Source of the DNA: Chitinophagaceae bacterium
Lineage (GTDB): Bacteria; Bacteroidota; Bacteroidia; Chitinophagales; Chitinophagaceae
Reading direction: 5' to 3'
Length of the DNA stretch: 64,000 nt
NCBI GenBank assembly: GCA_004028795.1
Contig: SAIW01000007.1
Span: forward strand, 1 to 64,000
Position numbers and translations under genes: made by a program. Below, piece after piece: positions 9,140-63,952 of the stretch. The notes beneath the pieces are model-generated. The model had not been told where the DNA came from and searched no databases. It was given only the letters and a program-made list of their open reading frames with translations. Position 1 is the first letter of the stretch, and every line of letters starts with the position of its first letter.

Positions 9140-9709
9140 ATGAGTACAGCAAAATATTCACCAAGGTTGGCAGATAAGTACAAAAAAGAAGTTGTACCTG
9201 CACTTTTAAAAAAGTTTGCATACAAGAGTGTAATGCAAGCTCCTAAATTAGAAAAAATCTGCATCAACCGTGGAGTAAACGGAGCAGTAAACGATAAAAA
9301 ATTAATTGATGTTGCTATTGGCGAATTAGAGCAGATTACAGGTCAGAAAGCTGTACCAACATTAAGTAAAAAAGATATCTCAAACTTTAAACTACGTAAA
9401 GGAATGCCCATTGGTGCGAAAGTTACTTTGCGTGGAGATATGATGTATGAGTTTTTAGACAGATTGGTAAGTGTTGCTTTACCCCGTGTACGTGATTTTA
9501 AAGGTATCAGTGATAAAGCTTTTGATGGTCGCGGAAACTATACATTAGGTGTTACCGAGCAAATTATCTTCCCTGAAATTGATATTGACAAAGTATCAAA
9601 AATCACAGGTATGGATATCACTTTCGTTACAACTGCACAAAGCAATGAAGAAGCTTATGAGTTGTTGAAAGAGTTGGGAATGCCTTTTAAAAACATTAAA
9701 AACAATTAA
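9140..9709 (+). CDS. rplE: 50S ribosomal protein L5
   Basis: L5 (189 aa) binds 5S rRNA and P-site tRNA in the central protuberance. Recognised by [58 protein letters not shown] split over the middle, and [21 protein letters not shown] 6-bp hairpin (9106-9111/9121-9126) lies just upstream in the spacer. Confidence 0.97.
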
Positions 9710-9719
9710 TTAAAATAGC

Positions 9720-9989
9720 ATGGCAAAAAAATCAATAGTTGCCCGCCAGGCGAAACGTGAAGCATTGGTTGAGCATTTTGCTGAAAAAAGAGCAGCATTA
9801 AAAGCTGAAGGTAATTATGCAGCTTTAGACAAGCTTCCCAAAAATGCGTCACCGGTACGTTTAAAAAACCGTTGCCAATTAACAGGAAGACCTAAAGGTT
9901 ATATGAGATTCTTCGGTCTTTCAAGGGTTATGTTCCGCGATATGGCCCTTAATGGTAAAATACCGGGTGTTAAAAAAGCAAGCTGGTAA
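9720..9989 (+). CDS. rpsN: 30S ribosomal protein S14 (zinc-independent form)
   Basis: This 89-aa S14 is the long form without the CXXC zinc ribbon. Only one Cys is present ([20 protein letters not shown]). It sits in the 30S head near S10 and S19. The end [20 protein letters not shown] is the family C-terminus. Confidence 0.96.
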
Positions 9990-63080: not shown

Positions 63081-63109
63081 TTGTCCATTTGTTTTATAGA
63101 CTATATTTG
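63081..63109 (+). promoter_or_regulatory. Promoter of the cysH leader
   Basis: TTG (63081-63083) and TATATTTG (63102-63109) are 18 nt apart and fit the Bacteroidota consensus well. Transcription would start near 63116, about 18 nt before the leader ORF and about 117 nt before cysH. Confidence 0.75.
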
Positions 63110-63133
63110 CCTACTAAACAAGTAGAGTTCTGA

Positions 63134-63190
63134 ATGAGTACACGAAAAATGATAAAGCCGATGCGTTGTACGCAACCAAAGTGTTGCTGA
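63134..63190 (+). CDS. 18-codon cysteine-rich leader peptide upstream of cysH
   Basis: ATG 63134 encodes MSTRKMIKPMRCTQPKCC and stops at TGA 63188. Cys occurs at codons 12, 17 and 18; the last two directly precede the stop. Bases 63150-63158 (TGATAAAGC) are perfectly complementary to 63221-63229 (GCTTTATCA), which lie 3 nt before the cysH ATG. Two short hairpins also compete: 63162-63166/63170-63174 with the first Cys codon as its loop, and 63172-63176/63183-63187 followed by a T run (63191-63195). Together this suggests cysteine-dependent attenuation, which is inferred. Translation of the ORF is not shown. Confidence 0.6.
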   Translation: MSTRKMIKPMRCTQPKCC

Positions 63191-63229
63191 TTTTTCTGTT
63201 CAATTATTATCTTCCATTACGCTTTATCA
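63150..63229 (+). promoter_or_regulatory. Leader RNA base pairing that can mask the cysH start
   Basis: The 9-bp helix 63150-63158/63221-63229 would close the region before the cysH start codon. A ribosome held at the cysteine codons 63182-63187 would reach toward the upstream arm and could keep the helix open. The two alternative small hairpins inside the ORF give the region an attenuator-like shape. This is a structural reading by eye. Confidence 0.5.
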
Positions 63230-63232
63230 ATT

Positions 63233-63952
63233 ATGAACGCATCCTTACAAAATAAATTACCAACTTTACAAGCCAACATCAGTAATCTTTCTATTAAAAA
63301 TGCTTTGGCATTGTTAGCAGATTTTTTTCCGTGTCAGGTTACTTTCTCAACCAGCTTTAGCTATGAAGACCAGATTATAACACACGAAATAGTCAATAAC
63401 AATTTGCCGATAAAAATTTTCACTTTAGATACAGGCAGATTATTTTCTGAAACCTATTCTGTATGGAGCAGAACCAACGAATTTTATAATACTAAAATAG
63501 AAGCTTATTATCCGGATGCTATTGCTTTACAGGAGTTGGTTTCACAAAGAGGCCCGAACAGTTTTTATGAAAGTATTGAGAACAGAAAAGAATGTTGTCA
63601 TATCAGAAAAGTTGTTCCACTAAAAAATGCTTTAAAAGGAAATACCATTTGGGTTACAGGTTTACGAGCAGAACATTCACCGGCAAGACAGGATTTGCAA
63701 ATTTTGGAATGGGATGAAGGTAATCAGTTAATTAAATACAACCCCTTGCTGCATTGGAATACGGCAGAAACAATACAATTCGTTCACCAAAATAATATAC
63801 CTTACAATTCTTTGCACGATAAAGGTTTTGTAAGTATCGGTTGTGCCCCTTGTACCAGAGCCATCAAAGCAGGAGAAGATTTCAGAGCAGGGCGTTGGTG
63901 GTGGGAAGACGCCAATAAAAAAGAATGCGGGTTGCATGAGAAACAAGCTTAA
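63233..63952 (+). CDS. cysH: Adenylyl-sulfate/phosphoadenylyl-sulfate reductase
   Basis: Reduces activated sulfate to sulfite in cysteine synthesis. The 239-aa protein has the ATP-pyrophosphatase-like motif TFSTSFSYEDQ (residues 38-48) and DTGRLFSETY. Iron-sulfur ligands CC (121-122) and CXXC (204-207), together with the active-site ECGLH (231-235), point to the [4Fe-4S] APS-reductase type. It ends 48 nt before the window edge, so partner genes (sulfate adenylyltransferase) may follow outside. It is preceded by the cysteine-rich leader ORF. Confidence 0.94.
   Translation: MNASLQNKLPTLQANISNLSIKNALALLADFFPCQVTFSTSFSYEDQIITHEIVNNNLPIKIFTLDTGRLFSETYSVWSRTNEFYNTKIEAYYPDAIALQELVSQRGPNSFYESIENRKECCHIRKVVPLKNALKGNTIWVTGLRAEHSPARQDLQILEWDEGNQLIKYNPLLHWNTAETIQFVHQNNIPYNSLHDKGFVSIGCAPCTRAIKAGEDFRAGRWWWEDANKKECGLHEKQA

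Follow-up and report, generated by a model that had tools for sequence, protein, structure and literature searches.

Background

In mycobacteria, leaderless short open reading frames (ORFs) with polycysteine tracts have been described as cysteine-responsive attenuators (Canestrari et al. 2020, cited in PMC13236596 and PMC9031893), and for M. smegmatis attenuation at the level of translation has been reported (via the same two papers). Candidate leaders in which Cys codons form runs close to the stop codon, without clear terminators, were described in 2005 for actinobacterial cys/cbs operons (PMC1262725). In Rhodobacterales, the uORFC-8-2 motif upstream of cysS combines Cys codons with a terminator, and ribosome-mediated attenuation has been proposed for it (PMC8632094). 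In attenuation of the ermC type, pairing of the leader hides the next start, which a stalled ribosome opens (PMC10219788). These papers, like the others cited below by accession, were available in part only, and our statements about them are limited to those parts.

Bacteroidota do without Shine-Dalgarno sites, and data from F. johnsoniae indicate that initiation is tuned by the structure of the start region (PMC6847099). Leader-peptide control has been described in this phylum for tryptophan (RF01692) and, in general terms, for amino-acid operons of F. psychrophilum (PMC9723704); for B. thetaiotaomicron the accessible text of PMC7366714 offers general statements only, and that of PMC2965389 and PMC10219788 mentions no Bacteroidota case. 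We found no report of a Cys leader in Bacteroidota, in a literature search that left supplements and most subscription journals outside its scope.

The locus studied here lies at the end of a stretch of 64,000 nucleotides from a Chitinophagaceae bacterium, which as a whole is called the window. A first-pass annotation of the window had proposed that a short Cys-ending ORF upstream of cysH controls this gene in response to cysteine. Here we report a computational analysis of this leader, of its counterparts in other genomes and of their complementarity to the start of the gene that follows.

Results

The cysH leader of the window

The proposed ORF of 18 codons ending in Cys-Cys-stop is indeed present upstream of cysH (Table 1), with Cys at codons 12, 17 and 18, a TGA stop and 42 nt between this stop and the cysH ATG. 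The gene order in the source genome is cysH, cysD, cysN and uroporphyrinogen-III methyltransferase, and a sulfite/nitrite-reductase-like gene lies on the opposite strand. No Rfam family scored above its gathering threshold at the Cys leaders when the window end and eight loci were scanned, and a comparison of six small ORFs, five of them leaders, with NCBIfam gave only two matches, both far below the cut-off.

Table 1. Features of the cysH leader region, in window coordinates
Feature	Position	Strand	Basis or remark
Putative operator 1, TCCAT-N7-ATAGA, upstream of promoter box	63084-63100	.	Motif YCYAY-N7-RTRGR
Promoter box TATATTTG	63102-63109	+	TAnnTTTG upstream of leader ATG
Putative operator 2, CCTAC-N7-GTAGA, at inferred transcription start	63110-63126	.	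Motif YCYAY-N7-RTRGR
Leader ORF MSTRKMIKPMRCTQPKCC-stop	63134-63190	+	Window translation; like ORFs in relatives
Putative anti-start arm 1, TGATAAAGC, codons 6-9	63150-63158	+	Pairs with 63221-63229; corresponding arms in L052, L002
Putative anti-start arm 2, GATGCGTT, codons 9-12, reaching the Cys12 codon	63160-63167	+	Pairs with 63236-63243
Cys12 codon, predicted sensing codon	63167-63169	+	Ribosome-position scan
Cys17-Cys18 codons	63182-63187	+	Window sequence
Start-region arm 1, GCTTTATCA, cysH positions -12 to -4	63221-63229	+	Complementarity to 63150-63158
cysH, thioredoxin-type APS/PAPS reductase	63233-63952	+	First gene of cysH-cysD-cysN-uroporphyrinogen methyltransferase
Start-region arm 2, AACGCATC, cysH positions +3 to +10	63236-63243	+	Complementarity to 63160-63167

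The "good promoter" of the first-pass annotation held in one sense only: a sigma-70 scan gave no plus-strand site, but the leader ATG is preceded by a TAnnTTTG sequence, which we take to be the Bacteroidota promoter box. The 75 nt preceding the leader ATG contain such a box in 36 of 43 leader loci, as against 31 of 972 background windows. We infer from the position of the box, without mapping, that transcription begins near 63113-63117, about 17-21 nt ahead of the leader ATG, so that the window leader is probably not leaderless.

Two palindromes flank the promoter box. Since a tight operator pattern produced zero matches in the source genome, missing even the sites known there, a looser motif, YCYAY-N7-RTRGR, was used; it resembles Rrf2/CymR-type operators. 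Of 51 leader loci, 32 have it in the 110 nt preceding the leader, compared with 18 of 647 background stretches, and two of its four matches in the 64-kb window lie at the cysH promoter. An operator-like site is also found within 150 nt at eight cysH loci that lack a Cys leader, and the motif is present twice between sulfite-reductase-like and TonB receptor genes (L031, 9460-9578). The presence of both palindromic operators at this promoter hints at a second layer of control, acting on transcription.

Two side observations concern these sites. The sole Rrf2-family regulator found in the source genome (L314, 1498-1914) is a candidate for binding the operators; no YCYAY-N7-RTRGR site was found at its own locus. 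Beside the sulfite-reductase-like gene of L031, the TonB receptor gene is preceded by a 41-codon ORF (9612-9737; MSKQLLF...MTCPYVD, translated by eye) without an NCBIfam match.

Cys leaders upstream of cysH in other genomes

A leader was scored where a short ATG-initiated ORF with at least three Cys in eight residues lay at most 320 nt upstream of cysH. We examined 82 cysH loci of the family, in which, by a fixed rule, cysH was the first gene in 62 and internal to an operon in 20; loci L026-L030 and L098-L102 were left out of the counts. Leaders preceded 43 of the 62 first-gene loci and two of the 20 internal ones. For the 62 loci, shuffled sequences gave a mean of 2.58 and a maximum of 6 (50 runs), and the reverse strand 3. 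When at least four Cys were demanded, 32 of the 62 loci still qualified, the shuffles falling to a mean of 0.22 and the next amino acid, Leu, reaching 12. In a later sample of 60 further loci of the same family, a Cys leader was found in 37 of 57. Absence of the ORF from related genomes had been named in advance as an observation that would refute the proposal; the test has now been run and did not refute it.

The 80 named records comprise 39 first-gene and 41 internal loci; a leader was present in 12 of the former and, within 320 nt, in none of the latter. Rufibacter ruber (MVYPSHIERMRFCCCSPCCCCC), a Sediminibacterium and two Flavobacterium species are among the carriers, and some of the named loci repeat loci of the first set (e.g. 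L103/L002, L117/L064, L140/L012). A leader was lacking in 27 of the 39 first-gene loci, including all five of Chryseobacterium, and in 19 of the 62 first-gene family loci, and among 16 more distant family loci it stood close to cysH in one only (L237). The Cys leader is thus common but not universal.

The 51 non-redundant leaders have a median length of 22 and a median stop-to-start distance of 55 nt; they use TGT 188 times and TGC 86 times, and 37 of them end exactly in Cys. Clusters reach six to seven Cys in some leaders. The window leader has three and its nearest relative, L002, only two, and the relatives that share its I-K context before the Cys (L002, L003, L052, L254, L255 and L262) have two to five. 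Separately, Met was frequent just before the first Cys in the 51 leaders (13 of 102 positions, versus 29 of 555 elsewhere in the N-terminal part); internal starts, methionine sensing or RNA pairing are possible readings of this excess.

Cys leaders upstream of cysS and other genes

In the source genome a second leader, MKFFYTYCCCCCC-stop, lies 75 nt upstream of the cysteinyl-tRNA synthetase gene, cysS, and Cys leaders were found at 13 of 28 first-gene cysS loci. Pairing with the start was not significant in these cysS leaders (n=13), and terminator-like elements were found in none of the 13. A CCCC-stop pattern had nine matches in the source genome (control, one), of which only that before cysS stood in a leader context. 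CCCCCC-stop had 21 matches in 117 family genomes: six preceded cysS and one cysH, a few of the remainder preceded a possible homoserine acetyltransferase or TonB receptors, and the others were apparently unrelated or unclear (genes assigned by eye). Leaders with CCCCCC or longer runs stand before a possible homoserine acetyltransferase and TonB-dependent receptors, again judged by eye, at L250 and L251 (genomes G087 and G106) and at L187. The Cys-leader regulon may be wider than cysH and cysS.

Complementarity between leaders and gene starts

The first-pass annotation had claimed a perfect 9-bp complementarity between part of the ORF and the region just before the cysH ATG, and this is correct (arms 1 in Table 1). 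A second perfect match, of 8 bp and lying within the cysH start (arms 2), had not been reported there. Dinucleotide shuffling of both stretches produced a Watson-Crick match of at least nine in 89 of 5000 cases, so the 9-bp match is by itself only mildly unusual.

If leaders hide starts, each leader should fit the start region of its own locus better than those of other loci. We measured the best uninterrupted helix between each leader and its own or foreign starts in ten intervals, without correcting p for their number. For this set, four of the 43 leader loci were dropped: L014, L083 and L090, whose ORFs end over 200 nt before cysH and may be due to chance, and L044, a near-copy of L043. Four others took their place, namely L045 and L087 (cysH operon-internal by rule) together with L002 and L081 (which have only two Cys), and the resulting 43 loci are those of the promoter-box count; removal of L087 and L047 left 41 loci, including the window locus, for the complementarity and first folding tests. 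Own pairs stood out at -30 to 0 (z -6.1) and -20 to +10 (z -5.5), with little at -40 to -10 and 0 to +30 and no signal at -80 to -30 and +20 to +90. A second measure of complementarity gave p 5e-5 on the same loci, and without the 10 nt preceding the leader ATG z was -3.7. Most of the signal resides in the part of the leader before the Cys cluster (z -3.4), and less in the Cys part (p 0.07). No signal came from control sequences, whether taken from the spacer, from 100 nt into cysH or from 150 or 250 nt upstream.

A similarity filter removed 8 of the 41 first-set loci and 27 of 45 held-out loci. The 33 retained first-set loci gave z -4.7. The 18 held-out loci (13 fetched later and 5 named; window excluded) gave p 0.006, 0.019 and 0.012 at three start intervals, and in six other intervals none fell below 0.05 (nearest 0.068, at -60 to -30). 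All 51 non-redundant loci together gave z -5.4.

Individual helices illustrate this signal. Helix 1, TGATAAAGC/GCTTTATCA in the window, corresponds to GATAAAGC/GCTTTATC in L052 and to ATAAAGTT/AACTTTAT in L002, where a C-G pair has become U-A. Counterparts of arm 2 with changed sequence occur in L003, L254, L262 and L275, and helix 2, GATGCGTT/AACGCATC in the window, reads AAAGTGTAT/ATACACTTT in L003, TGTGTATGT/ACATACACA in L275 and, with two G-U pairs, AAGTGTATGTGTTG/TGACACATACACTT in L262. Neither helix was found in L255, a close relative of L003. At L011, L065, L071, L072 and L077 the leader start itself pairs with a stretch 7-24 nt before cysH, with varying flanks, and little or no start pairing was seen for clear Cys leaders such as L042, L046, L054 and those of the genera of L004 and L006. 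The arms shift position and were compared by eye, without a formal covariation test; read in this way, they appear to change together between genera. The leader RNA is, on this comparative evidence and without structure probing, predicted to pair with the initiation region of the gene that follows, though not in every locus. The pairing proposed for the window is thereby backed by complementarity that is specific to position across genera, a property of the set rather than of each member.

Folding models and the predicted sensing codon

For the 51 non-redundant loci, each start was folded with its own and 25 foreign leaders, with and without a ribosome. Start accessibility was 0.503 with the own leader and 0.542 with foreign ones (p 0.038), and 0.533 versus 0.569 (p 0.002) with a ribosome at the leader stop codon, which does not reopen the start (p 0.88). 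With a ribosome at the first Cys of the cluster the values were 0.568 and 0.563 (p 0.22), and the accessibility gained on stalling there was 0.065 versus 0.021 (p 0.016). The own leader lowered accessibility by at least 0.10 in only 14 of the 51 loci and raised it by 0.10 in none. The start region was taken more widely here than in an earlier test on 41 loci, whose results (p 0.12 and 0.07) were no more than suggestive. The folding models thus support the release of the start by a ribosome stalled on the leader, more weakly in the 41-locus test.

At the window locus, modelled accessibility was 0.45 in the free RNA and 0.64-0.69 with the A site on codons 5-12; with the A site at Cys12 the start region was unpaired at 0.66, and a ribosome at Cys17, Cys18 or the stop gave 0.39-0.40. 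The idea that ribosomes stalled on the Cys codons open the cysH start fits the model near codon 12, but not at Cys17 and Cys18, which leave the start closed. Cys12, and not the final Cys-Cys, should therefore be the sensing codon in this model, and Cys17-Cys18 would matter only through queuing; the first-pass annotation had made no distinction between the three Cys codons.

Hairpins and terminators

The window leader RNA is no more stable than its shuffles (z +1.0; 171 of 200 shuffles fold at least as well). Two small, mutually exclusive hairpins had been described around the Cys codons, and both can form: one at 63162-63174 (-4.5 kcal/mol), with the Cys12 codon as its loop, and one at 63172-63187 (-5.4 kcal/mol), with five pairs, inside the leader, ending at Cys18 and followed by TGATTTTTCT. 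The second is terminator-like in a pattern scan (one found versus 0.2 expected in shuffles). A stricter terminator scan was positive in 4 of 42 cysH leader loci, the window locus (L001) not among them; neither the hairpins nor the T run is apparently conserved. A terminator model for the window is set back by this hairpin of five pairs inside the leader, absent from the stricter scan.

A classical attenuator calls for an intrinsic terminator between leader and gene together with an alternative antiterminator; the window lacks this arrangement, which L025, L237, L151 and L165 have. L025 and L237, from one genus of the family and with another cysH type, have Cys leaders followed by strong terminators, and leader codons past the Cys codons (GAGAAGG, GGAAGG) match the terminator 5' arm; by its sequence, this layout is that of a putative classical attenuator. 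Flavobacterium humi (L165, 2642-2923) and F. limnosediminis (L151, 2654-2925) carry tandem Met/Cys leader ORFs before cysH (MTNQVLNMMMCMCCPNQGEVFAIR and ...CMMMMCCMRNFARGRLSYYLP in F. humi). An intrinsic terminator comes after each ORF, and its 5' arm again matches leader codons past the Cys codons; the arms of the first element are GGGGAG/CTCCCC in F. humi and GAGGAG/CTCCTC in F. limnosediminis. To judge from this arrangement, the tandem elements are a predicted double classical attenuator. A match to RF01692 (Bacteroid-trp; 67.2 bits) also lies on the minus strand of L151 (2294-2422), opposite to the Cys leaders and a few hundred bases from them.

Discussion

We consider it probable that cysH of the window is under cysteine-responsive translational attenuation, in the absence of expression, ribosome profiling or start-site data. 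Comparison establishes that Cys-coding leaders and their promoters are conserved and that the complementarity between leader and start is locus-specific; translation of the leader, ribosome stalling and the response to cysteine are inferred. Transcription would start near 63113-63117. With ample Cys-tRNA, ribosomes would traverse the 18-codon leader and leave, and the freed codons 6-12 would pair with the cysH start through either pair of arms and block initiation. When cysteine is scarce, a ribosome waiting at Cys12 would cover both anti-start arms, the start would open and cysH would be made; the remaining operon genes could follow through translational coupling or mRNA protection.

The rival that has to be weighed most carefully keeps the Cys leader and lets it act by premature termination of transcription, either intrinsic, at hairpin 63172-63187 and its T run, or Rho-dependent, with stalling preventing it. 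Such combinations of Cys leader and strong terminator exist in L025, L237, F. humi and F. limnosediminis, and the window hairpin passes the pattern scan; its weakness and position within the leader, the scarcity of terminator-like elements among cysH leader loci and a complementarity confined to the cysH start, which termination leaves unexplained, make this unlikely here. Still more doubtful is a real Cys leader that merely slows or couples translation, by re-initiation or ribosome queuing, with the complementarity as a by-product: the many leaders without start pairing, those of cysS included, would suit it, yet the complementarity is specific to locus and position and recurs in held-out loci, and a median of 55 nt from stop to start is long for re-initiation.

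Two explanations remain. If the ORF were due to chance and cysH were regulated solely by a repressor at the palindromic operators, the operators at the promoter and the similar sites at eight loci without a Cys leader would be accounted for, as would the mere three Cys of the window leader and two of L002; we hold this to be very improbable in view of an enrichment far above shuffles and above every other amino acid, its recurrence in later loci and the two to five Cys of the relatives sharing the I-K context. A function of the peptide itself, for instance in metal or thiol binding, for which clusters of up to six or seven Cys might speak, is scarcely credible: besides Cys no residue is common across genera (lists compared by eye, without formal alignment), lengths vary, and NCBIfam offers no convincing match to the five leaders compared.

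Beyond the control of cysH by start masking at this one locus, we lean, though only slightly, towards the existence of a Bacteroidota cysteine regulon that works by ribosome stalling. Its members would be cysH, cysS and probably further sulfur genes, each preceded by a fast-evolving leader of "anything plus a Cys run" whose codons serve as the antisense of the next start codon, without a Shine-Dalgarno site and under a repressor operator; in other lineages, tandem Met/Cys terminator attenuators would replace these leaders. If the codons of a Cys leader do mask the cysH start directly, this would show how translational attenuation can work in a phylum without Shine-Dalgarno sites and would provide a ready cysteine reporter for Bacteroidota. 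The switch would be kept by function, that is by Cys codons and pairing, and hardly by sequence, and libraries of conserved-RNA models can miss such elements.

Known systems provide partial parallels, drawn here from the accessible parts of the papers cited above. In the Bacteroid-trp RNA (RF01692, Rfam), Bacteroidota already possess a leader-peptide RNA for an amino acid pathway, but it serves tryptophan, and Rfam is silent at the Cys leaders of the window end and eight loci. The uORFC-8-2 motif shares with our second group of leaders the position of a Cys-codon leader before cysS, but its consensus includes a terminator, of which the Bacteroidota cysS leaders have none (0 of 13). The hiding of a start by leader pairing and its opening by a stall recall ermC; there, however, the signal is a drug and the hidden element a Shine-Dalgarno site, whereas the presumed signal of the cysH leader is a lack of Cys-tRNA. 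The mycobacterial and actinobacterial leaders likewise precede genes for cysteine or sulfur metabolism, have their runs of Cys codons close to the stop and lack a conserved terminator; the leaders described here meet the criterion of the mycobacterial type, a short ORF with clustered Cys codons before such genes. They differ in belonging to another phylum, in probably not being leaderless, at least in the window with its inferred start, and in pairing, as predicted, directly with a start region that has no Shine-Dalgarno site (the leaders themselves were not compared by sequence). We conclude that the cysteine leader is real and conserved and that its functional kind is known, whereas the phylum and the start-masking layout are new.
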